In this document: positions 5,922 through 28,062 of the stretch, one piece after another
Layout of the letters: every line of letters begins with the position of its first letter
Position numbering within the stretch: position 1 is the first letter of the stretch
Assembly (NCBI GenBank): GCA_020431405.1
Contig: JAGQIK010000291.1
Location: 1 to 35,039 of the forward strand
DNA length: 35,039 nt
Source: Myxococcales bacterium
Lineage (GTDB): Bacteria > Myxococcota_A > Polyangia > GCA-2747355
Direction: 5' to 3'
Translations under genes and position numbers: made by a program
The notes under the pieces: model-generated
Told to the model about the DNA's origin: nothing
Seen by the model: only the letters and a program-made list of their open reading frames with translations
Databases searched by the model: none

Positions 5922-7859
5922 CTATCTCAGCCGCCGTACGTCCCCGTCGCGCACCGTGACGAGCGCCGCGTCGAAGTGCTCGGCCAGTGGGATGACGTAC
6001 TTTCGTGACTGGCCGACCATCGTCTTGAAGTCTGCCGCCGTGATCTCGCCATGCGCTTGCAGGTAGCTGCGCAGCCGCGACTCGAGCTCGTCGAGCACCT
6101 CGCGATGAAACAGCAGCGTCTGCACGCGCACCAGAGTGCCGCGCGACAGCAGCAGCTTGCGGGCGCCATCGATGCGTTGGTCGTCGGCGTCGATGCGATC
6201 CGAGAGCTCGCTGTCCCAAGGCGGCGCGAGGCCAGCGCTCCGGTAGAGCGCCGCGATCTGGTCGGCCACCGGGCCAAGCGCGCCGTGCACGCGCTCGCGG
6301 TGGGCCGGACGCAGACAGACGTCTTGCTCGCTGGCGAGCTCGCCGCGCTGGTTTAGCTCGTCGAGCAGCCGTGAGAAGAGCTTGGGCGCCACGCCGTCAG
6401 GCAGGCGCGAGTGAAGCTCGGCGCGGCTGATGCCGAGCTTGAGCGGCTGCTGGCGGTGATGCGTGTCGACAAGCTCGAGCATCTCGGCGCGCAGGGCCGC
6501 GGCGTGCTCGCCGTGTACGACGGCGAAGCTCGGCTCGTCGAAGCGTAGGAGGCGCCCGTCCGCGACCAGCTCGCGCAAGAGCTCCGCGATCTGCGTCGCG
6601 CCGAAGCGCAGGCGCGGCTCGAGGTCGGCGCGCTCCATGCCCGCTTCGCCCGCCTCGTAGACCTCGGCGAGCAGGCGCTCGGCGGGCGCGGCGTGCTCGA
6701 GCGCGGCGAGGCGCGCGACGGCGTCGCGATCGCGCGCGCGCAGCTTGCTCGACAAGACGCGCAGCACCTCGCCGCCGCCGATGGTGGTGCCGTGGTTTTG
6801 CTGCTTGGCGAAGCCGCGCAGCACGAAGCGATCACCGGGCAGCGCCACCACCGGCACGTCGAAGCGAAGCTGCGCTAGCGCGCTCTTGCCGGCCTCGAGC
6901 GGCTCGCGCTGCGACAGCAGCACCAGGCTGCACATCTGCTGGCGCGTGCCGAGGTGAAAGAGCACCTTGCTGCGCGCCTTGAGCGCGCTGCGCGTGCTGC
7001 CGAGCAGCTCGACGCGCACGTCGAGCATCGACGAGCAGCGCAGCCGCCCGACGTGCGCGACGACCTCGCCGCGCGCGATGGCGTCGCGGTCGACGCCGCC
7101 GAGGTTGAGCGCGGTGCGCTGGCCAGCGACGGCCTGCGCCACGCTCTCGCCGTGCACCTGCACCGTGCGCACGGTGGCGCGCTCGTTGACGGGCAGCACC
7201 TCGATGGCGTCGCCAGCCTTGATGGTGCCCGAGATCAGCGAGCCGGTGACGACGGTGCCGAAGCCCTTGAGCGAAAAGACGCGGTCGAGCGGCAGGCGCA
7301 GCGGGCCGTCGATGGCGCGGTCGTCGAGGGCCGCGATGTGCTCGGCGAGTGTCTTGCGCAGCACGTCGATGCCATCGCCGGTCTGCGCCGAGCAAGGGAT
7401 GATCGGCGCTTCGGCGAGGGCGCCCGCCTCGCGCAGCGTCTCGCGCACGTCTTCGATGGCGAGCTCGCGAAAGTCGTCGTCGACGAGGTCGCTCTTGGTC
7501 AGCGCCACGATGCCGCGCTGCACGCCGAGCAGCCGGCAGATGTCGAGATGCTCGCGGGTCTGCGGCATTACGCCTTCGTCGGCGGCGATGACGAGCATCA
7601 CCAGATCGATACCGCCAGCGCCGGCGACCATCGCTTTGATGAAGCGCTCGTGGCCCGGCACGTCGACGATGCCGATGCGCGCCGGCGGGTCGAGCCCGTC
7701 GTCGCGGCCGAGATCGAGGTGCGCGAAGCCGAGCTCGATGGTGATGCCGCGGCGCTTCTCTTCAGCGAGCCGGTCGGTATCGACGCCGGTGAGCGCGCGC
7801 ACCAGCGACGTCTTGCCGTGGTCGATATGACCGGCGGTGCCGACGATAAACGATCGCAT
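5922..7859 (-). CDS. selB: Selenocysteine-specific elongation factor SelB
   Basis: This 645-residue protein starts at ATG 7859, immediately before the G domain. G1 is [11 protein letters not shown] (residues 7-17), G2 lies in the [11 protein letters not shown] region, G3 is DVPGHERF and G4 is TKSD. EF-Tu-like domains II and III follow, and the last 250 or so residues carry repeated winged-helix units that bind the SECIS mRNA hairpin. The [10 protein letters not shown] spelling and the long C-terminal extension separate SelB from EF-Tu and IF2. It delivers Sec-tRNA to in-frame UGA codons. It lies 35 bases after the stop of the large GYF/TPR gene in the same direction, so co-transcription is likely. 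selA, selD and tRNA-Sec are not in the window. Confidence 0.95.
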
Positions 7860-7894
7860 CGAGGTCACCGTTGGACGCGGGTCGCGAGCTGACC

Positions 7895-10800
7895 CTAGTC
7901 GTCTTCTTTCTTGGGGGGCTTCCAGCCGAGGCCGCGCAGGATCTTCTCGGCGACCGAGCGCGCGGCGTCGGTCTTCTTCGAGATCTGCATGTAGGTGGCG
8001 AGGGCGGCCTTGGCGGCGGCCTTGCGACCCAGCTTGTGCAGCACGGTGCCGAACAGATAGAACGCCTCGGGGCGCCACATGTCGGTGGGCTTGGCGTAGG
8101 TGGTGGCCATCTTGAGGTGCGTCGCGGCGCGCGGGTAGCGGTGCGTGTCGCTGAGGATCTGTCCCAGCTTGAGGTGCGCCTCGCCGAGGGTGGCGTCCTT
8201 TTTGACGGCCGTCTCGTAGGCGGCGCGCGCGAGGCGCTCCTTGCCGAGGTCACCCAGCGCGATGCCTTTGTAGAGGTAGGCGTCGCCGCGCTCGGGCTCG
8301 CGCTTGATCACCGAGTCGATCTCGCGCAGGCCGTCTTTGACGGCGCCGCCCTTGATCAGCAGCTTGGCGCGCTTGAGGCGCAGGTCGACGCGCTTGGGCT
8401 CGAGCTTGAGCGCCTGCTTGTAGGCGTCGGTGGCCTCGGCGGTGCGGCCTAGCTGCTCGAAGATCTTGGCCTGGATCTCGAAGAACTCGGCGCTCTTTTC
8501 GCGGTTGATGGCCTGGTTGATCTCGACCAGCGCTTCGCCGAGCTGACCTTGCGCCAGCCGCGCCTCGGCGCGCAGCGCGCGCGCGCGCGCCATCGTGGGG
8601 TGATCGCGCAGCACCGTCTCGGCCTGCGTGAGCGCCTTCTTGACCGCGCCGGCGGCGATGTAGGCCTTGGCGGCGGACATGCGCGTCTCGGCCGAGGGGT
8701 GGTCGACGAGCACGGCCTTGTCGAACTCGGCGGCAGCCTGCTTGTACTTCTTGGTCTCGAGGTAGAGCCTGCCGAGCGCCGCGGCGAGGCCCGAAAAGCG
8801 CGCGTCGCGAAGTTTCAGCTCCTCGAAGCCCTTGAGCGCGGCCTCGAGCTTGCCCTGTAGAAAGAGCGTTCGCGCGATGTTGAAGCGCGCCATGTTGAGG
8901 TTGCCGTCGAGGGCCAGCGCCTCTTGAAACGCCTTGTAGGCCTCGTCGAACTGCTTGGTGGCGAGGTTGGCCTCGCCGATGGCGTTGCGCACCTCGGCCG
9001 AGCGCGGCATCGCCGTCGAAGCCTGCTTGAGCGTGGCGAAGGCGTCGGTGGTCTTGTTGCGGCGCAGGTAGACCTTGCTGAGCTGGTAGTAGGGCTCGAA
9101 GTAGGTCGGCTTGAGCTTGATCGAGGCCTCGTAGTTTTTGATCGCGCCCTGCACGTTGTGCGCTTCTTCGGAGCGGCCGAGCAAAAACCGGATCTGCGCG
9201 TCGCGCGGCGCCGTCTTGGCGAGCTGCAGCAGCACCTTGCGCGCGTCGAGCGTCTTGCCCATCGCCAGGTGCGTGCGCGCGATCATGATCGTCGCCTCGC
9301 GTTTGCCCGAGCGCTCGGCCTTGCTGAAGTGGACGAGCGCCTCCTTGTAGGCACCGGCGGCGAATTGCAGCCGGCCCATGCCGAGGTGCGCGCGCGTGTT
9401 CTGCTGGCGGCTGAACTGCAGCGCCGACTGGAAGCGCGCGCGGGCCTGATCGACGCGGCCTTCTTTGGCGTGAAGCTCGCCGATGCGCGTGTGCGCGGCG
9501 CTGATCTCGCTGCGCGCCGCCGACGTCTGCGGCATCTTCGCTACGCGTTGCCAGGCGGCGAGCGCCTCCTTGGGCTTCTTGTCGACGAGCAGATCGCCCG
9601 ACAGCAGCAGCAGCCCTGGGTGGTTGGGGGCGACCTGCAGACCGGCCTGCACGTGCGCCTGCGCTTGGCGGGCGTTGTTGAGGTGCTTTTCGACCTGCGC
9701 GGCGCCAAACAGCGCCGCCGGCAGCTTGGGTTTGACCGCCAGCGCGCGCTTGAAGGCGGTCTGCGCGCCGGCGTAGTTCTTCTTCTCGAGCTGCGCCCAG
9801 CCGAGGTAGACGGCGGCCTCGGGATCGGAGGGCTCGCGGTCGGAGATCAGGCGCAGGTTGGCCACCGCCTCGTCGACCTTGTTGTCGGCGAGCTTGTAGA
9901 GCGCGCGCGCCTTCTGCAGCTCGATCTTCGGCTCGGCGACGGTCGCCAGCGAAGCGATGAGCGTGTTGGCTTGGTTGAGCTTGGAGACGCTCGGGCCGAA
10001 GCGCACGATACGCGCGAGCAGCGCCTGCGCCTGCAGCGACTTGGCGTCTTCGACGGAGGCGACCTTACGCGCCGTGATGAACGCGCCGTGCGCCATGCGG
10101 TAGCCGCCGAGCGTGTCGCGCCGAAGCTGCGCGCGGCCCGAGCGCAGCGCGTTTCGCGCCTTGCTCAGCGCCGAGGACTTGCCGGTGATGAGGTTGATGC
10201 CGAAGAAGCCGTAGTCGGTGAGCAGGCCCATGGCCAGGCCGGCGACGATGAGGAACACGCCGGCGCCGACGCCGATCATCATCGGCGCCTTGCCGCGCGT
10301 CTTCTTGCGGCGCGTCTTGCGCTTCTTGTCGAGCGCGTCGAGATCGGCGTCGACCGCGGCAGCGTCGGCGGCGGCGCGCATCTCGAGCTCGCCCGACGAT
10401 GGCGCCTCGAAGCGCACGATCTCGTCGTCGCCGTACTCCTTGGGCGCGACGACGTCGATGTGCGGGCCGCCGTGGCCGCCCTTGGGCCGCAAGAGATCGG
10501 TGCCGCCGCCCATGCCGCCGGCGGGCGCCGGCAGATCGATCGTGCCGCCGGGCAACCCGGTCTGGCCCACCGCGGGCGTCGGGTAGTCGATGCCGCCGGC
10601 GGGCGCCGGCAGACCCGTGGTGTGCGCGGGCGTCGGCAAGTCGATGCCGCCCGACGGCGCGGGCAGGTCGATGCCGCCCGAGGGGGCGGGCAGGCCGATG
10701 GTGTTTGCCGGCGTGGGCAGATCGACCCCGCCGGCAGGCGCGGGCAGGCCGACGTTTCGCGACGGCGTGGGCAGATCGATGCCGCCCGCGGGCGCCGGCA

Positions 10801-16728: not shown

Positions 16729-17265
16729 TCAGCGCAATCGCTGCTGCGCCTCGACCAGGGCGAGGCTGACGCGCTCGAGCAGCGGCCAGCGTAACAGCGC
16801 CGCGTCGTGTGCCACGGCGAGCGTGCGCTGAACCAGCGCTTGCAGCGGTGTGCGTTCGAAGTCATGACGCCGAAGCTCGGTGGGCACGCCCGGAAAGAAC
16901 GCGCGCGCGAGCATCGCGACCTTTGTCTCGCGCACGGCGTCGCAGAAGACCACCGCGCGGGTCGGCGTGATGCCGCGCTCGCGCAGCGCACACGCGCTGT
17001 TGCGGAAGTTCTCGAGCGTGGTGCGCGAGCGACCCTCGACGATGATCGCGCGCTCGTCGAGGCCGGCGTCGACGAGGTGGTCGGCCATCAGCTGCGCCTC
17101 GCTGACGCCGGGCGCCGTGCGCTTGGCGGTCACACCGCCACTCGTGACGATCACCTCGTCGCTGCTGGCGCGGACGTGGGCCAGCTCGCGCGCCACCTGC
17201 GCGAGATAGCGCGCGAGGACGCCTTCGCGCCGTTCCTGATAGCCGAGGACGATGAACACGCGCAC
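16729..17265 (-). CDS. YdcF/SanA-like DUF218 protein
   Basis: This 178-residue protein is predicted to be mainly soluble. It opens with a hydrophobic strand (VFIVLGYQ), then VIVTSGGVT, SEAQLMADHLVDAGL, IIVEGRSRTTLENFRNS and RAVVFCDAVRETKVAMLARAFFP. The SGG, SEA, E..S.(T)TxEN and late R signatures are those of the DUF218/YdcF fold. Members bind nucleotides or act in envelope functions such as vancomycin tolerance (SanA), but their reactions are poorly defined. The start is GTG 17265 or, better spaced from GAGGG, GTG 17259. The inverted-repeat element begins only 10 bases upstream of 17265, so its own promoter must lie within or beyond that element. Confidence 0.8.
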   Translation of the reverse strand: MRVFIVLGYQERREGVLARYLAQVARELAHVRASSDEVIVTSGGVTAKRTAPGVSEAQLMADHLVDAGLDERAIIVEGRSRTTLENFRNSACALRERGITPTRAVVFCDAVRETKVAMLARAFFPGVPTELRRHDFERTPLQALVQRTLAVAHDAALLRWPLLERVSLALVEAQQRLR

Positions 17266-17646: not shown

Positions 17647-18558
17647 ATGACGCGCCCCAAGACGCGCTCCAAGACGCTGCATTGCGACGTCGTTCGATCC
17701 CTTCCCGACGTCGGCGCGCGCTTCGATCGCCGCGTCGCCATCGTCATCCCCGCCCACAACGAAGCCCGCCACATCGCTGACGTCATCGCGCGCTGCGTGG
17801 CGCTCGCGCCCACGTGCGTGCTCGTCATCGACGACTGCTCGAGCGACGGCACCGCCGACGTGCTCGCAGCCTGCAGCGCGCTGCATCGCCGGCGCCACCC
17901 CGGCGTCGTGCGCTGGACGCGCAACAGCCAAAACCTCGGCAAGCAGGGCGCGGTGCGGCGCGGGTTGGCCGAGCTGCTGGCGACCTTCGGCGTCGACGGC
18001 CTCGACGCCGTGGCGCTCATCGACGGCGACGGCCAGCACGATCCGGCCGAGCTTCCCGCGCTGGCCGCGCTGCTCTCAGCGCCGCGCGCGCGTGATCGCG
18101 CCGCGCTGCCAGCGTACGCGCTGGTGCACGGCTACGACGTGATCATCGGCGCCCGCGCCCACGACGAGATGCCCGTGCAGCGCCGCGTCTCCAACTGGCT
18201 CGTCAACACCGGCTTTCGCGTGATCGCGGGCATCGATCTCGTCGACGTGCAGTCCGGGCTGCGCATCTACAGCGCCGAGCTGGCTGCCGTGCTCGCCGAG
18301 CGTCTGGGCGACCACGGCGGCTACGGCCTCGAGCACGAGTCGCTGTCCGTGCTCGCCAGCTACGGGCGCGAAGCGCGGCGCACTGTGCGCATCGCCGCGG
18401 CGCCAGCGAGCTGCGGCTACGGCGTCGCCGAGAGCGGCATCGGCCCCGACGAGGTGGTCAACCTCGCCGTCGCCACCGTGCAGCAGGCGATGCGCATCCG
18501 GCGCACGCGGCGTCACAGCGGCGCGCACGCGCTGTCCAGCCGTCGAGGTGCGCGATGA
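17647..18558 (+). CDS. Family 2 glycosyltransferase (polyprenyl-phosphate type)
   Basis: This 303-residue protein starts at ATG 17647, with GGAGG six bases upstream; in-frame codons further upstream are rejected on this basis. GT-A motifs in order are VAIVIPAHNEARH (nucleotide-sugar strand), VLVIDDCSSDGT (about 60-67), a basic NLGKQGAVRRGL, and the metal-binding DGDGQHDP (about 125-132). A later QSGLRIYS segment is typical of DPM1/GtrB-like enzymes. No clear C-terminal transmembrane pair is seen, so it should act at the cytoplasmic face and transfer a sugar, probably to a polyprenyl phosphate. It overlaps the next gene by four bases (ATGA), and the third gene is a GtrA flippase-like protein, which supports lipid-carrier use. 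The donor sugar is unknown. Confidence 0.88.
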   Translation: MTRPKTRSKTLHCDVVRSLPDVGARFDRRVAIVIPAHNEARHIADVIARCVALAPTCVLVIDDCSSDGTADVLAACSALHRRRHPGVVRWTRNSQNLGKQGAVRRGLAELLATFGVDGLDAVALIDGDGQHDPAELPALAALLSAPRARDRAALPAYALVHGYDVIIGARAHDEMPVQRRVSNWLVNTGFRVIAGIDLVDVQSGLRIYSAELAAVLAERLGDHGGYGLEHESLSVLASYGREARRTVRIAAAPASCGYGVAESGIGPDEVVNLAVATVQQAMRIRRTRRHSGAHALSSRRGAR

Positions 18559-19394
18559 ACGCGCTGACGGTCGAGATCCACGACGTGACGCCGGCGCTGG
18601 CGCCCGAGATCGGCGAGATCTACGACGCCCTGCGCGAGGCGGGGATCGAGCGGCCGACGCTGCTCGTGGTGCCCGCCTATCTCGACGCGCGCGGCCACAG
18701 CTGGGACCTGCGCGCCTACAACAACATGGCCCACTGGCTGCGCCAGCGGCAGGCTGAAGGCTGCGACATCATCCAGCACGGCCTGACGCACCGCGCGGCC
18801 GCGCCGCCACCGCCAGGGCTGCGCAACAGCTTCATGCACCACGTCTTCTCGCGCGGCCTAGCCGAGTTCGCGCACCTCGACGGCGTCGAAGCGCGCGCGC
18901 GGCTTGTCGTCGGCCGCAACATCCTCGAGGCCTGCGGGCTGCATAGCGAAGGCTTCATCGCGCCGGCGTGGCAGCAGAGCCCGGCGGCCATCGCGGCGCT
19001 GCGCGACTTGGGCTTTCGCTTCACGGCGTTCTTTGGCCACGTGCAGGCGCTCTCGTCGTCGCCGTCGTCGGCGTTGTCGCCGCCGTCGTCGTCGGCGTCG
19101 CTGCGCGAGGCGGGCGAGGCGATGCCGCCGCCGCTGCGCACGCCCGCTTTGACGTTCGACGCGGCCAACGCGCTGATCGACTACGGCAAGCGCGCGGTGA
19201 TGTGGCTGCGCGAGCAGTGGGGCCGCACGCGGCCGCTGCTGCGGGTGGCGCTGCACCCGGCCGACGTGCGTGGCCGGCGCCCGCTCGATCACATCGTGCG
19301 GCGCATCCGCCTGCTGGCCCGCGAGCGTCGCGTGGTGAGCTATGGCCAGTGGTTCGCCGCTGCCGAGCGCGAGGTCGTTCGTGACGCCGCGTGA
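18555..19394 (+). CDS. DUF2334-type polysaccharide-deacetylase-like protein
   Basis: This 279-residue protein has ATG 18555 overlapping the glycosyltransferase stop (ATGA). It begins VEIHDVTP (H9, D10), the DUF2334 counterpart of the NodB metal-site Asp. IIQHGLTH (about 73-79) resembles the NodB HSxxH metal ligands, GFIAPAWQQS resembles motif 3, and a late LHPADV carries another His. DUF2334 belongs to the glycoside hydrolase/deacetylase superfamily, so removal of an acyl group from a sugar is plausible. There is no signal peptide. A Ser/Pro run (about residues 166-184) encoded by TCG repeats interrupts the fold. It is the middle gene of a translationally coupled trio; its substrate may be the lipid-linked sugar made by the upstream enzyme. 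Confidence 0.85.
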   Translation: MNALTVEIHDVTPALAPEIGEIYDALREAGIERPTLLVVPAYLDARGHSWDLRAYNNMAHWLRQRQAEGCDIIQHGLTHRAAAPPPPGLRNSFMHHVFSRGLAEFAHLDGVEARARLVVGRNILEACGLHSEGFIAPAWQQSPAAIAALRDLGFRFTAFFGHVQALSSSPSSALSPPSSSASLREAGEAMPPPLRTPALTFDAANALIDYGKRAVMWLREQWGRTRPLLRVALHPADVRGRRPLDHIVRRIRLLARERRVVSYGQWFAAAEREVVRDAA

Positions 19395-19812
19395 GGCCCG
19401 TCGCGAGGCGTTCGCACTGAGGCTGCGCAGCGTCGGCGCCAGCGCGGCGAGCACGGCGCTCGACGTCGGCCTCTTCGCGCTGTTGACGCTGCCGGTCGCA
19501 GGGCTGGTGTACTCCACCGCGCTGCTCGCCGGGTTGCGCTGGCTCTGCGGCGCCATCGGCGCGGTGGCCAACTTCCTGCTCAACCGCTGGGCCTTCGGCG
19601 TCACGGGCGCCAAGGGCGAGCGCGCCGGCGCGCAGGGGCTTCGCTACGCGGCGGTGGCAGCGGGCGCGGTGACGCTCGCGGCGGGCGTGTTCTGGGCGCT
19701 GGCACGACTGACCGCGCTCGACGCGCGCCTGCTTTCGGTGCTCAGCCTCGCGCTGGTGTGGCTCGTCTTCACGTTCCCGATGCTGCGCGGCTGGGTCTTC
19801 GCCCGTCGCTAG
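19381..19812 (+). CDS. GtrA-family membrane protein (lipid-linked sugar flippase type)
   Basis: This 143-residue protein starts at GTG 19381, inside the end of the deacetylase gene (14-base overlap), with GAGGT five bases upstream. It has four predicted transmembrane helices and the GtrA signature ANFLLNRWAFG between helices 2 and 3. GtrA proteins are proposed to flip polyprenyl-linked sugars for surface decoration. Coupling to a GT2 enzyme is the classical gtrA/gtrB arrangement, here with a deacetylase-like gene in between. It is the last gene of the trio, and no T-tract terminator was seen before the tRNA promoter. Confidence 0.88.
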   Translation: MTPREARREAFALRLRSVGASAASTALDVGLFALLTLPVAGLVYSTALLAGLRWLCGAIGAVANFLLNRWAFGVTGAKGERAGAQGLRYAAVAAGAVTLAAGVFWALARLTALDARLLSVLSLALVWLVFTFPMLRGWVFARR

Positions 19813-19903: not shown

Positions 19904-19949
19904 GAACGCGCTTACTTTCGAGGGCTTGGGCTGCTCGAGGTGAGCATCC

Positions 19950-20034
19950 GGAGGAGTGGCCGAGTGGTCGAAGGCGGCGGTCTTGAAAACCGCAGACGTG
20001 CAAGCGTCCGGGGGTTCGAATCCCTCCTCCTCCG
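19950..20034 (+). tRNA. serT: tRNA-Ser(UGA)
   Basis: The acceptor stem GGAGGAG pairs with CTCCTCC (20027-20033), with discriminator G20034. The D arm begins GGCCGAG. The anticodon stem GCGGT/ACCGC encloses CTTGAAA with anticodon TGA. A long variable arm (GACG/CGTC) marks a class II tRNA, and the T arm is GGGGG-TTCGAAT-CCCTC. CCA is not encoded (TCA follows). The anticodon and variable arm make it serine, reading UCA and related codons. Its last 24 bases plus five flanking bases are repeated at 20153-20181. Confidence 0.95.
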
Positions 20035-20105
20035 TCAGCCACAACAAGCGCTTGTGCCCTGGCCGCCACCAGTCCTCGCCTCACGCGAGCAGCGAGGCGC
20101 GACAG

Positions 20106-20197: not shown

Positions 20198-21079
20198 TCA
20201 GATGTCTCTATGGCTCAGGTAGCGCTCGTAGCCGTCGAGTAGCGCGTCGTCGTTGACCGGCTCGTTGGCGGCTTCGTCGAGGTAGCGCGCGAGCGCGCGC
20301 AGCTGCGTGTCGGGCAGCGGCGTGTCCCACAGCTCGACGCGACAGAGCTTGGGGCACTCGAGCAGCGGACCGATGTCTTGCACCTTGGTCGCGTCGAGCG
20401 CGATGTGGCTCAGCGTGGGGTGGCCGGCGAGGGGCGAGAGGTCGACGACCTCGGTCTTGCTGCAGTAGAGCTGGATCAGCGGCAGGCCGGCGAGGGGTGA
20501 GAGGTCGCTGACCTTCGAGCCGTTGATGTTGAGGGCGCGCAGCTGGCCGAGCTCGGCGAGCGGCGCCAGCGAGTCGACCTTCGAGATGTCGGTCCAGCGG
20601 AAGTTGAGACGCCGCAGGCCGCGCAGCGAGGCAAAGCGGTCGAACGTGTCGAAGGCGGCGTTGCGCAAGGCGACGTGGCGCACGAACATCCCGTGCGGAT
20701 CGGCGAGCAGCGCCAGCGCTTCATCGCGCTCGGCGGGCTTGTTCAAGCGGAACGTGTCGAGCTTTTCGACAAACCCGTAGCGCAAGCTCGCGTAGTACTG
20801 CCCGTCGAGAAAGTGCGTCATGTGCTGGGCGAGCAAGGGAAACGCCTTGCTCAGCACATCGCGCCGATAGGCTTCGAAGCACGCCTTGGCGTGCTTCTTG
20901 GCCTTGCGCTGGCGCGGCGGCTCGAGCTCCGCGGCCAGATCTGCCGCCACGAGCTCGCCGAGCGGATGCTTCTGATCGCCGAGCCAGCGCGCGTAGTCGC
21001 GCACGGCGTTATCATCGCCGGCGATAACGTGTGCCTCGTGCGTGGCGTCGCGCGGGATCTGTAGACGCGGAGCGTGCAT
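20198..21079 (-). CDS. Leucine-rich-repeat protein with TIGR02996-like N-terminus
   Basis: This 293-residue cytoplasmic-looking protein (no signal peptide) starts at ATG 21079. Its N-terminus DNAVRDYARWLGDQKHPLGELVAAD matches the repeat-companion (TIGR02996) pattern of a YAxWLxxxxxPxGE segment found beside repeat proteins in Myxococcota and planctomycetes. From about residue 150 there are irregular leucine-rich repeats of 20-23 residues (LRRLNFRWTDISKVDSLAPL, LRALNINGSKVSDLSPLAGL, LSHIALDATKVQDIGPLLEC). The role is probably protein interaction. Its 3' end is next to the duplicated tRNA end, so it may have arrived with an integrated segment, but base composition looks like the surroundings. 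Confidence 0.75.
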   Translation of the reverse strand: MHAPRLQIPRDATHEAHVIAGDDNAVRDYARWLGDQKHPLGELVAADLAAELEPPRQRKAKKHAKACFEAYRRDVLSKAFPLLAQHMTHFLDGQYYASLRYGFVEKLDTFRLNKPAERDEALALLADPHGMFVRHVALRNAAFDTFDRFASLRGLRRLNFRWTDISKVDSLAPLAELGQLRALNINGSKVSDLSPLAGLPLIQLYCSKTEVVDLSPLAGHPTLSHIALDATKVQDIGPLLECPKLCRVELWDTPLPDTQLRALARYLDEAANEPVNDDALLDGYERYLSHRDI

Positions 21080-22598: not shown

Positions 22599-22779
22599 GC
22601 GCTGCCACCCCGCACCTCGCCCCCCTCATCGCCCCCGCGCAACGGCTGTTGCTCCCACGCGCGCCGATATCTCGTCAGATGTAGGACAAGCGCCCGAGCA
22701 GCGGCTCCGTGCCCGCAGGCCCCTGTCGCGCGTGTTTTGCGCTACCGTCGCGACCCACGCGCCGACAGGAGCCTCGCCG

Positions 22780-23298
22780 ATGAAGATTCACATCCCGCGC
22801 CTGCCCAAGCACGCACGCTTCATGATGCAGGCGCACCTGGTAGCGACTCAAAACACCTGCGACCGCGGCCCCGAGCTGCTGCTCGACGCGGGTCGCCACG
22901 GCGTCGGCGCGGTGATCGTGCAGCAGGACCGCATCATCGCCGGCGGCTACAACGGCTCGGCGCCAGGGCAGCCGCACTGCAACGAGGACGGACACCTGCT
23001 GGTGGACGGCCACTGCGTGCGCACGATCCACTCCGAGATGAACGCCATCATCCAGTGCGCGCTCGACGGCACCAGCCCGCAGGGCGGCACGATCTACACC
23101 ACCGCCTCGCCGTGCTTCGACTGCGCCAAGGCGATCGCGCGCGCCGGCCTTCGCATGGTCTATTTCGGGCAGGGCTACGAGTCGCGCTACGGGCTCAGCT
23201 CGTCGGTCAAAGAGTTCCTCTCGACCTCCGGCGTCGAGATGGCGCCGCTGATCCTCGACTTCGACGACAGCGGCACGCTGGTGTGGAAGGACGCCTGA
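22780..23298 (+). CDS. Deoxycytidylate (dCMP) deaminase-like protein
   Basis: This 172-residue protein starts at ATG 22780, with AGGAG eight bases upstream. Zinc ligands of the cytidine/dCMP deaminase fold are visible as H84-S-E86 (HSEMNAI, with E86 the catalytic proton shuttle) and PCFDC (C112, C115). GGYNGSAPGQPHC and the VDGHCVRTIHSE segment are typical of dCMP deaminases (ComEB-like), which give dUMP for dTTP synthesis. Members of the same superfamily act on other pyrimidines, so the substrate is inferred. The FAD oxidase gene starts 20 bases after its stop and may be co-transcribed. Confidence 0.9.
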   Translation: MKIHIPRLPKHARFMMQAHLVATQNTCDRGPELLLDAGRHGVGAVIVQQDRIIAGGYNGSAPGQPHCNEDGHLLVDGHCVRTIHSEMNAIIQCALDGTSPQGGTIYTTASPCFDCAKAIARAGLRMVYFGQGYESRYGLSSSVKEFLSTSGVEMAPLILDFDDSGTLVWKDA

Positions 23299-23318
23299 GG
23301 GCACGCGAGGCTGCGCGC

Positions 23319-24689
23319 GTGCGCGAGCGGCGCTGCGATGTAGCCGTTATCGGCGCTGGCCTGTCCGGCCTGCGCGCCGCGCTGACGTTGCACGAGGCCA
23401 AGCGCTCGGTGATCGTCGTCGAGGCGCGCGAGCGGGTCGGCGGGCGCGCACACACCGTGCGGCTCGACGACGGCACGGCGATCGATCTCGGCGGCCAGTG
23501 GGTCGGACCGACGCAACGCGAGATCCACGCCACGCTGTGCGAGCTCGGCATCGCGACGTACGCGATGTACGACGCCGGCGCCAACGTGCTCTTGCGCCGC
23601 GGGCGGCTGCATCGCTACCAAGGCTCGATCCCGCGCGGCGTGGGGATCTTCGCCCTCGCCAGCGTGGGCCTATCGATGCTGCGGCTCGACCGAATGGCCA
23701 AAGGCGTGCCGCTCGAGGCGCCCTGGCAGGCCGCGCGCGCCGCCGAGCTCGACGCCCTCAGCCTCGGGGCGTGGGCCGATCGCCACGTGGGCTTGCAGGC
23801 GGCGCGCGACCTACTGCGCGTGGCGGGCTTGGCGGTGTGGGGCTGCGAGCTCGACGAGCTGTCGCTTCTGCACGCGCTGTTTTACATCCACGCCGCCGGC
23901 GGGCTCGACGCGCTGATCTCGTCGCGCGGCGGCGCGCAGCAAGACCTCATCGCTGGCGGCGCGCAGGGCGTCGCCGAGGCGATGGCCGCGCGCCTCGACG
24001 CCGACACGCTCGAGCTGGGGCAGCCCGTGCGGCGCATTCGCCAGGATGACGATGGCGTGCTGGTCGAAAGCGACGCGCTGTCGGTACGCGCCGCGCGCGC
24101 CATCGTCGCGCTGCCGCCCACGCTCGCCGGGCGCATCGACTACGCGCCGGCGCTGCCGCCGCGCCGCGATCAGCTGACGCAGCGCATGCCTCACGGCGCG
24201 ATCATCAAGTGCTTCGCCGTCTACGCGCGGCCGTTCTGGCGCCAGCACGGCCTCTCGGGCCACGCCGCGTTGCCCGACAGCCCACCGCTGGCGGTGACCT
24301 TCGACGCCTCGCCGCCCGGTGACGGCGCGGGCGTGCTGCTCGGCTTTATCGGCGGACGCGACGCCCGCGCCTGGGCCGCGCGCGACCCCGAGACGCGCCG
24401 CGCCGCCGTCATCGAAGCCTTCGCGCGCGTCTTCGGCGCCGAGGCGCGCACCCCGCGCCACTACGTCGACCACGACTGGACGTCGGAGCCCTTCACGCGC
24501 GGCTGTCCCGTGGGTCTGTTTGCCCCCGGTGCGCTGAGCGCCGTCGGCGAGGCGCTGCGCGCGCCGTGCGGCCGCATCCACTGGGCGGGCACCGAGACGG
24601 CGACCGTTTGGAACGGCTACTTCGACGGCGCGATCCAGGCCGGCCAGCGCGCCGCGCGCGAAGTCGGCGCGCGCCTCGACGCTAGTTGA
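23319..24689 (+). CDS. FAD-dependent amine oxidase (flavin monoamine oxidase family)
   Basis: This protein is about 456 residues from GTG 23319, chosen because the FAD motif starts seven codons later and GAGG lies eight bases upstream. The Rossmann motif is VIGAGLSG (residues 10-17), followed by VVEARERVGGRAHTVR and DLGGQWVGPTQ, all MAO-family signatures. The C-terminus has HWAGTETATVWNGYFDGAIQAGQRAA, the second FAD-contact motif. It should oxidise an amine with release of aldehyde and peroxide. The substrate is unknown. It lacks a signal peptide. Its stop overlaps the end of the convergent lipoprotein gene by eight bases. Confidence 0.9.
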   Translation: MRERRCDVAVIGAGLSGLRAALTLHEAKRSVIVVEARERVGGRAHTVRLDDGTAIDLGGQWVGPTQREIHATLCELGIATYAMYDAGANVLLRRGRLHRYQGSIPRGVGIFALASVGLSMLRLDRMAKGVPLEAPWQAARAAELDALSLGAWADRHVGLQAARDLLRVAGLAVWGCELDELSLLHALFYIHAAGGLDALISSRGGAQQDLIAGGAQGVAEAMAARLDADTLELGQPVRRIRQDDDGVLVESDALSVRAARAIVALPPTLAGRIDYAPALPPRRDQLTQRMPHGAIIKCFAVYARPFWRQHGLSGHAALPDSPPLAVTFDASPPGDGAGVLLGFIGGRDARAWAARDPETRRAAVIEAFARVFGAEARTPRHYVDHDWTSEPFTRGCPVGLFAPGALSAVGEALRAPCGRIHWAGTETATVWNGYFDGAIQAGQRAAREVGARLDAS

Positions 24690-27234: not shown

Positions 27235-28062
27235 ATGACGACCAAGCTGATGCGAATCGTGGCCCTCGTCGGGGTGGGACTTTGGTGCGGCTGCAGCGAC
27301 GAGCTGCCGCCCGTAGCGGACGCGGCGCCCGACGTCGCGCCCAAACGCGACGGCACGTCCGATGCCCCGCCCGCCGACGGTCTGCCCGCCGACGCCGAAG
27401 ACGACCGCACCATCCGCGACACCGTCCCGCCCGACACCACCGGCGACGGTCGCCCCAGCGACACGACCCACGACGGCATCATGGACACCGTCTCGCCGGA
27501 CACCACGGCCGACGCGCCCAACCCCTGCGCTGGCCAGAACCTCACCGTCGACCTCGACAACAACAACGTGCCCGACTGTCAGGAGAACCTGCTGATGAAC
27601 GGGCAGTTCAGGGCCAATGTCGCCGGCTGGATGCCCGGCGGGAACACCAACGCCATCGTTTGGAACTCGATGGATGCGCAAGGCTCGAGCGGCTCGGGGT
27701 CGGCCCGTGTCGTCAACATGAGCCCCAATGCAAACCCCAACGTCAACGGCGCGACGCAGTGCTTGCGGCTCAGTGGCGCCAAGACGTACACGCTGCGCGC
27801 CCAGTTCTTCATCCCGTCCGGCCAGCAGGGCCAGCCCGGCGCCAGCCTGCAGGCCGTCGCCTACCCGGTCAACAACTGCCTCGGAACGGGCACGGTCAAC
27901 AACTCGCCGACCAGCACGAGCCCATTCAACACGTGGACACTGATGACGTACACGTTCAGCGTGCCGGCAACCACCAACTCCGTGCGCATTCGCATCAACA
28001 GCAGCAAGAACAACACGACGAACAACGTGTCGGTCCAATGGGATAACGTCTTCCTCAAGTAG
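27235..28062 (+). CDS. Lipoprotein with Asp/Pro linker and carbohydrate-binding-like jelly-roll domain
   Basis: This 275-residue protein has lipobox WCGC (Cys20). An ATG at 27250 is an alternative start. Residues about 22-95 form an Asp/Ala/Pro/Thr linker (DTVPPDTTGD, SPDTTADAPN). The rest has ENLLMNGQFRANVAGWMPGG, a signature opening of CBM4/9- or CBM-like jelly rolls, and ends VRIRINSS...VSVQWDNVFLK, the typical final strand. It is therefore likely to bind glycans at the surface. The Asp/Ala/Pro linker, lipobox and jelly-roll arrangement is shared with the 29611-30543 protein, suggesting a repeated gene design. Confidence 0.75.
   Translation: MTTKLMRIVALVGVGLWCGCSDELPPVADAAPDVAPKRDGTSDAPPADGLPADAEDDRTIRDTVPPDTTGDGRPSDTTHDGIMDTVSPDTTADAPNPCAGQNLTVDLDNNNVPDCQENLLMNGQFRANVAGWMPGGNTNAIVWNSMDAQGSSGSGSARVVNMSPNANPNVNGATQCLRLSGAKTYTLRAQFFIPSGQQGQPGASLQAVAYPVNNCLGTGTVNNSPTSTSPFNTWTLMTYTFSVPATTNSVRIRINSSKNNTTNNVSVQWDNVFLK

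Follow-up and report, generated by a model that had tools for sequence, protein, structure and literature searches.

The window, the stretch of DNA analysed here, is the whole 35,039 nucleotides of contig JAGQIK010000291.1 (contig C58) from the Myxococcales bacterium assembly GCA_020431405.1, which measures 11.2 Mb in 733 contigs and is about 96% complete. Between positions 17,647 and 19,812 it carries three overlapping genes on the forward strand, referred to below as the trio. These encode a family 2 glycosyltransferase (GT2), a DUF2334 protein, and a small membrane protein of the GtrA family. The original prediction, made from the sequence alone, had read them as an Arn-like system for the modification of a lipid-linked sugar. 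Here, we focus on the conservation of the trio as an ordered gene set and on the possibility, proposed tentatively, that it produces a free amino sugar on a lipid carrier and exports it.

Genes and protein families of the trio

The first gene (17647..18558) encodes a GT2 of 303 amino acids resembling ArnC, DPMS, and GtrB. The second (18555..19394) encodes a DUF2334 protein of 279 amino acids, a predicted de-N-acetylase of the NodB/CE4 fold, and the third (19381..19812) a GtrA-family protein of 143 amino acids, a candidate flippase or membrane partner of the GT2. The predicted overlaps of 4 and 14 bases are confirmed: the bases ATGA (18555..18558) hold both the stop of GT2 and the start of DUF2334, and the end of the DUF2334 gene shares 19381..19394 with the GtrA gene, whose start is the GTG at 19381. 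A purine-rich stretch lies just 5' of each start (GGAGGTG for GT2, GAGGTG for DUF2334, and GAGG for GtrA). Longer open reading frames (ORFs) are possible from GTG 17527 for GT2 and ATG 19342 for GtrA; the shorter starts are preferred because they better fit the upstream purine-rich stretches. A promoter and terminator scan around the trio gave no match.

The GT2 belongs to Pfam PF00535 (E 8.5e-15). Its profile ranks ArnC first among the PDB entries (9hwj, 1.8e-16), followed by DPMS (5mlz, 1.4e-12), chondroitin synthase, and GtrB, and in PHROG it is GtrB-like (1.9e-10). ArnC, DPMS, and GtrB are also the top rows of a fold search with a model of the GT2-DUF2334 fusion protein described below (predicted local distance difference test score, pLDDT, 84.0; predicted template-modelling score, pTM, 0.60, which makes the relative position of the two domains unreliable). 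ArnC is thus the best solved relative by profile and by fold, in keeping with the ArnC-like role first proposed. The motif DGDGQH (residues 126-131; 18022..18039), invariant in all six aligned trio GT2s, is presumably part of the GT-A nucleotide-sugar site. Residues 146-161 of the window protein form a 16-residue insert that is missing from all other aligned trio members. ArnC and GtrB each have a C-terminal membrane domain; crude hydropathy detects none in the trio GT2s.

The DUF2334 protein matches PF10096 with 85.4 bits (E 5.3e-24; cut-off 26). Its sole NCBIfam match is NF053788, the GlcNAc-phosphatidylglycerol deacetylase GpgD, at 2.2e-31 and 109.1 bits against a cut-off of 280; the DUF2334 proteins of three trio relatives match the same model at 1.3e-37 to 2.4e-33, all below the cut-off. 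Judged by sequence, GpgD is the closest named family. A sequence search of the PDB gave no significant match, and the structural matches of a confident model (pLDDT 89.2, pTM 0.88) are mostly CE4/NodB enzymes. ArnD (8t0j) aligns with the model at Z 16.1 over 227 residues (root-mean-square deviation 3.8), tied with other CE4 enzymes; in Foldseek it ranks 13th with a TM score of 0.56 of the query, which speaks for likeness of fold only.

Residues invariant in all rows of a 32-row DUF2334 alignment include H9, D10, H75, H79, E104, W139, R230, H234, and D237. The alignment, used for structure and tree, is a selection that leaves out L008, L010, L018, and L031 (same as L037), among others. The candidate metal and catalytic residues D10, H75, H79, and H234 lie in three motifs: HD (residues 9-10; 18579..18584), which holds the candidate catalytic or metal aspartate; HGLTH (18777..18791), with H75 and H79 as candidate metal ligands; and HP (H234-P235; 19254..19259), with the candidate catalytic histidine. 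Together, HD, HxxxH, and HP fit what we take to be the usual metal and catalytic set of the fold. The protein is therefore probably a metal-dependent amidase of the NodB/CE4 fold, and the earlier parallel with ArnD stands at this level. The first strand of the model begins at residue 3, which leaves no room for a signal peptide. Residues 172-187 and 189-192, a Ser/Pro-rich loop missing from the other trio members, are modelled with low confidence; the stretch coding this loop holds a TCG-type repeat (19053..19100).

The window GtrA protein matches PF04138 over model positions 7-117 of 117, with a thin margin (5.4e-6, 27.0 bits; cut-off 26.1), and the GtrA proteins of four relatives score 38-47 bits. 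Crude hydropathy marks three hydrophobic segments, and no solved structural relatives were found. The family name, GtrA/DPMS transmembrane domain, refers to the membrane partner of synthases that make polyprenyl-phosphate sugars. This name, together with the lack of a detectable C-terminal membrane domain in the trio GT2s, would suit a protein that anchors or activates a soluble GT2 and flips nothing, like the membrane domain of DPMS or like Rv3632, a small helper that is described as assisting the synthase PpgS (PMC9671496). Evidence on the GtrA protein Rv3789 is termed conflicting (PMC7389260). On the other side, GtrA proteins are presented as proposed flippases (PMC11127046, PMC7389260), and one of them, GtcA, is needed for lipoteichoic acid glycosylation and is the proposed flippase of a sugar on C55 phosphate (PMC7389260). 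The flippase originally assigned to the third gene was of the ArnE/ArnF kind; the protein is a GtrA instead, flipping is a proposal for this family, and the protein may equally anchor the GT2. An anchor without any flipping seems to us rather unlikely, and it overlaps the reading developed below, which it does not exclude.

Conservation, fusion, and relatives of the trio

Searches of the genome from which the window comes (E up to 0.001) found a single GtrA and a single DUF2334 protein, and the trio GT2 scores 446 bits there against 72.8 bits for the next GT2. A search with the DUF2334 protein matched 19 of 96 genomes, its own included, and six of these carry the trio. Among 84,980 species, a two-motif genome scan returned 108 pattern matches and confirmed eight loci, and at all eight GT2, DUF2334, and GtrA stand in this order. 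The eight sources are metagenome-assembled genomes named Deltaproteobacteria, Myxococcales, or Proteobacteria; the motifs were strict, so divergent trios elsewhere are possible. In an even sample of the phylum, 40 of 377 genomes had a DUF2334 match, of trio type in G000, G007, and G282, the last in another class of the phylum than the window's. With duplicates removed (L031 and L037 encode the same GT2, DUF2334, and GtrA proteins), nine distinct loci carry the complete ordered trio, and they span two classes of the phylum and no fewer than three families. The co-occurrence suggested as a check on the original prediction thus extends beyond close relatives.

Apart from two close pairs, identity among trio loci is 47-59% for GT2, 44-59% for DUF2334, and 38-65% for GtrA, and because the proteins are this divergent the arrangement is old. 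Mantel correlations over the nine loci (0.90, 0.71, and 0.66) are raised by two close genome pairs and lend weak support. The GT2 subfamily is sharply set apart: eight of 317 genomes of the class score 322-492 bits with it and the next scores 103 bits, and the next-best GT2 is at or below 89.9 bits in all nine trio genomes. Six of the eight high-scoring genomes hold trios. In another, G071, the contig end falls inside the GT2 gene and the sole DUF2334 is of the GT4-linked kind described below; the last, G036, is taken up with the points that weigh against our reading.

In four genomes of one genus (G007, G016, G024, and G032), GT2 and DUF2334 are joined in one open frame. Three of the fusions measure 530, 522, and 542 amino acids, and the G007 frame, which could start earlier, reaches 645 amino acids. 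The one fusion scanned with Pfam (L003) shows both domains, and no membrane segment exceeds a crude hydropathy threshold in any of the four. Since all fusions fall in one genus, a single fusion event is likely. The nucleotide sugar used by GT2 enzymes of this kind is cytosolic. A deacetylase fused to such an enzyme with no detected membrane span should therefore act on the cytosolic face. CE4-fold enzymes act on many acetylated substrates, so the DUF2334 protein could in principle serve a nucleotide sugar or a polymer and be tied to its neighbours by a shared pathway only. This is improbable in view of the natural fusion to GT2, and the characterised relative, GpgD, is described as acting on the lipid product of the neighbouring glycosyltransferase (PMC12713373).

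The nine trio DUF2334 proteins form one clade with 100/100 support, on one side of one branch of the 32-row tree. Neither a trio GT2 nor a trio GtrA was found near any of 38 non-trio DUF2334 loci in the phylum (flanks up to about 1.5 kb, shorter at contig ends). This count omits the second copies L057, L058, L059, and L064, and 36 of the 38 gave an A1 match; 13 of the 43 listed phylum-sample matches have no locus in it, although the 96-genome search covers the genes of two such genomes. A family 4 glycosyltransferase (GT4) is nearby at 29 of the 38 non-trio loci, on the DUF2334 strand at 27 of these. The two GT4 proteins tested have NF053787 (GpgS) as best match, below its cut-off, at 7.8e-53 and 4.9e-56. 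GT4-DUF2334 pairs (L008, L012, L022, L027, L038, and other non-trio loci) are thus common in the phylum, the two tested being gpgS-gpgD-like, and they predict that myxobacterial relatives make glucosaminyl phosphatidylglycerol or a lipid like it. G016 and G032 hold both such a pair and a trio. One deacetylase family thus works with two unrelated glycosyltransferases, in separate clades, as the GT4 and GT2 partners and the clade of trio DUF2334 proteins indicate.

That three unrelated genes are merely packed together is highly improbable. Dense packing is common in bacteria and one orphan GT2 of the trio subfamily exists (G036), but chance clustering does not account for nine distinct loci, the unbroken order at all eight motif-scan loci, the fusion, the single DUF2334 clade, and the absence of trio partners at the 38 other loci, and it is rejected.

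One scan of viral contigs confirmed no relative, and a plasmid search with GT2 gave no match at 1e-10. A tblastn search of plasmids with DUF2334 returned four distant records (best identity 35.7%). In three of the four (H3 left out), glycosyltransferase genes directly follow the DUF2334 gene: L065 (Thermomicrobium roseum), L066, and L067 (sphingomonad).

The trio is flanked in the window by a divergent DUF218 gene, a gene for a large tetratricopeptide repeat protein, and a seryl-tRNA synthetase gene. The DUF218 gene (16729-17265, reverse strand; PF02698, 5.1e-16) adjoins the trio and has no counterpart at other trio loci, and a tRNA-Ser(tga) gene (19949-20036) lies 136 bases after GtrA. Six of the window neighbours were searched for at eight related trio loci and not found, and no tRNA occurs in the stretches examined there. 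The trio is therefore a free-standing cassette. Elsewhere, the window holds a SelB-type elongation factor gene (5922-8078, reverse strand), a hint of selenocysteine use, a leucine-rich-repeat gene (20198-21079, reverse strand), and a dCMP/cytidine-deaminase-type gene (22732-23298, forward strand).

A lipid-linked free amino sugar as the possible product

Starting from the observed co-inheritance, fusion, predicted folds, and conserved residues, we tentatively propose, with a little less than even confidence, that the trio makes a free amino sugar linked to polyprenyl phosphate and exports it, via the following steps. The GT2 would move an N-acetylhexosamine from a uridine diphosphate (UDP)-sugar to polyprenyl phosphate in the cytosolic leaflet, as its family suggests. 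The DUF2334 protein would then remove the acetyl group in the same leaflet, a step suggested by its fold, its conserved residues, and its relationship to GpgD. GtrA would take the resulting polyprenyl-phosphate-hexosamine to the periplasmic leaflet or hold the GT2 at the membrane. Finally, an unlinked glycosyltransferase of the GT-C type, for which no gene is seen at the locus, would put the amino sugar on an envelope glycan or lipid. The fusion with no detected membrane segment supports a physical coupling of the first two steps on the cytosolic side. The nature of the lipid, the sugar, the flipping, and the acceptor are what we infer. Polyprenyl phosphate is more likely as carrier than a phospholipid, because a GT2 of the ArnC/DPMS type is paired with a GtrA/DPMS membrane protein. 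The polyprenyl carrier of the original prediction is thus likely, with the reservation that kinship to GpgD would also fit a phosphatidylglycerol-linked sugar.

Several points weigh against this proposal. The closest named deacetylase, GpgD, acts on a phosphatidylglycerol-linked sugar. The NCBIfam scores of the GT2 are so far below the cut-offs (ArnC 27.4, PpgS 43.0, and AglJ 43.8 bits) that donor and acceptor cannot be read from its sequence. Residues 43-61 of the window GT2 form one stretch above the crude hydropathy threshold, as do residues 19-37 of the stretch used for the DUF2334 protein of G282. G036 has a trio-type GT2 alone (L114:1507-2328), with neither DUF2334 nor GtrA beside it; this genome has no DUF2334 match, and its one GtrA is generic and lies elsewhere. 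Seen from DUF2334, the linkage of the trio is hence strong; seen from the GT2, it is not absolute. Upstream of the trio and on its strand, the closely related genomes G016 and G032 have genes for a YegS/DAGK lipid kinase (YegS_C/DAGK_cat) and a PF01553 acyltransferase.

The remaining points against it concern the final transferase. Pfam finds no GT-C or further Arn-type gene among 26 window genes (the weak ORFs 3-377, 23187-23621, 23811-24581, and 27579-27812 were left out), which bears out the earlier remark that no final transferase is adjacent. There is likewise no GT-C among 20 nearby ORFs of eight related loci scanned singly, nor among 25 of 92 families when 55 flanking ORFs of the eight loci were scanned together; the choice of ORFs is rough in these GC-rich loci. 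GT-C candidates exist, each of the nine trio genomes having 9-19 matches to PMT_2. In four trio genomes, 34 of the 40 PMT_2 regions compared supplied 38 hydrophobic ORFs; no orthologue common to all four genomes was among them, in a weak test confined to PMT_2. Left out were seven weaker matches of G096 and one of G007 from the 51 in these genomes. Three G000 proteins have reciprocal best matches, none of them in all three other genomes, and the 38 ORFs gave no tblastn match in the window and the eight related loci. Lack of a GT-C at the locus does not defeat the proposal: judged from locus numbers, the PpgS system too has its final transferase gene at a distance from the ppgS cluster.

The transfer to a surface polymer or lipid expected by the original prediction accordingly found no backing: the limited test yielded no shared GT-C, and the modified lipid may already be the end product. 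The same holds for lipid A as the recipient. LpxC occurs in eight of the nine trio genomes (none was found in G098), which makes this acceptor possible, and nothing points to it. The Arnt_C search matched none of the nine trio genomes, and no control genome matched either.

If the product is the modified lipid itself, the trio could be a counterpart of the gpgSDF or hexSDF operons, in which case GT2 would glycosylate phosphatidylglycerol or another glycerolipid, DUF2334 would deacetylate it, and GtrA would flip the finished lipid with no later transferase. This account is a serious one that we nonetheless consider unlikely. It would explain the matches of DUF2334 in the window and three relatives to NF053788, all below the cut-off, the GpgS-like GT4 proteins beside other DUF2334 genes, the lack of an adjacent GT-C in the scanned window genes and the ORFs of relatives, and a gene order of synthase, deacetylase, and membrane protein such as is described for gpgSDF (PMC12713373) and hexSDF (PMC10128005). 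The lipid kinase and acyltransferase of G016 and G032 also argue weakly for a glycerolipid setting. They lowered our confidence in the polyprenyl proposal from even to just under it, raised that in the glycerolipid account by as little, and took a trace from the broader idea given below. Against the glycerolipid account, the glycosyltransferase is a polyprenyl-phosphate-type GT2, not a GT4 or of MGDG-synthase type, a GtrA takes the place of a YbhN or MprF-like membrane protein, and the presence of both a GT4-DUF2334 pair and a trio in G016 and G032 suggests different products. In these genomes a DsbA-like thioredoxin gene joins the kinase and acyltransferase genes upstream of the fused trio and on its strand; the three lie within L030:4145-6993 in G032 and L032:4239-6975 in G016.

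Returning to the polyprenyl-phosphate proposal, a broader idea, possible though doubtful, is that the trio would be a self-contained device that builds free hexosamine on polyprenyl phosphate ahead of flipping and in which synthase and de-N-acetylase are coupled, in one genus as one polypeptide. DUF2334 would then be the kind of enzyme sought in PpgS-type pathways, and the exchange of a GT4 partner for a GT2 would have shifted this deacetylase family between substrates built on phospholipid and on polyprenyl phosphate. When envelope lipids or glycans carry free amino sugars, surface charge and the sensitivity to antibiotics or cationic peptides can change. The ArnC-like synthase-deacetylase fusion offers a simple way to ask whether deacylation precedes or follows flipping, a question that the work on HexSDF left unsettled.

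Comparison with known systems

Two precedents absent from the original prediction, gpgSDF and hexSDF, share the operon logic of the trio. In the account of gpgSDF from Pseudomonas aeruginosa, the genes make glucosaminyl phosphatidylglycerol, and GpgD is suggested to be cytosolic (PMC12713373). Synthase, deacetylase, and membrane protein follow in the same order, the deacetylase being assigned to COG3233 in gpgSDF (PMC12713373) and matching NF053788 in the window. Unlike the trio, this operon is described with a GT4 (GpgS) and a YbhN/UPF0104 protein (GpgF) in place of GT2 and GtrA. NF053787 is not among the 15 NCBIfam matches of the window GT2 (E up to 0.1). Membership in gpgSDF is therefore rejected, as the glycosyltransferase and the membrane protein belong to other families. 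A further difference is that the window DUF2334 falls short of the GpgD cut-off. The hexSDF operon of Clostridioides difficile likewise consists, as reported, of synthase, deacetylase, and flippase and leads to an amino-sugar glycolipid (PMC10128005). Both sides of the membrane are proposed for HexD, with deacetylation possibly before flipping (PMC10128005, PMC12713373). In contrast to the trio, HexS is described as monogalactosyldiacylglycerol (MGDG)-synthase-like and HexF as MprF-like, and the proposed acceptor is hexosyl-diradylglycerol (PMC10128005). The trio has GT2 and GtrA where hexSDF has an MGDG-synthase-type HexS and an MprF-type HexF.

The Arn pathway provides the best solved GT2 relative, ArnC, and a deacylase, ArnD, that shares the NodB/CE4 fold with DUF2334. 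It differs from the trio in its third component, ArnE/ArnF in place of GtrA, and in the membrane part of ArnC, which was not detected in the trio GT2. The ArnC model (NF007986/PRK10714; cut-off 529 bits) scores 27.4 bits with the window GT2 and 52.4 bits with the L003 fusion, and neither ArnA nor ArnB, which supply UDP-Ara4FN, is among the 26 window genes. With family cut-offs unmet and PF04138 as third gene, membership in the pathway is rejected. The Arn-like reading survives as an analogy of logic and fold, the N-acyl group being described in the Arn pathway as removed on the lipid before export (PMC12748117).

The galactosamine pathway of mycobacteria and corynebacteria pairs, as described, a polyprenyl-phosphate GT2 (PpgS) with the small membrane helper Rv3632; flipping and deacetylation are attributed there to unidentified factors, and the gene for the final transferase lies away from the ppgS cluster by locus number in both species (PMC9671496, PMC3485146). 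The likeness to the trio extends to an amino sugar deacetylated on the lipid. In contrast to the trio, no DUF2334 protein is shown for this pathway (PMC9671496, PMC3485146). The PpgS model NF058614 scores 43.0 bits with the window GT2 and 47.1 bits with the fusion against a cut-off of 370. DUF2334 is nonetheless a candidate for the deacetylase of this pathway. A PF10096 match, perhaps below the cut-off, also occurs in Corynebacterium glutamicum, a PpgS-pathway organism that served as control genome.

Three-component glycosylation systems of GtrA, GtrB, and GT-C resemble the trio, by their published outline, in a GtrB-like GT2 with GtrA (PMC11127046, PMC7389260). The trio differs in the deacetylase gene between GT2 and GtrA and in having no adjacent GT-C among the genes scanned. 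No account of a GT2-DUF2334-GtrA set turned up in searches that covered the open-licence literature and mostly targeted other terms. The parts of the set are of known types, and put together they seem to vary a known logic in a new way.

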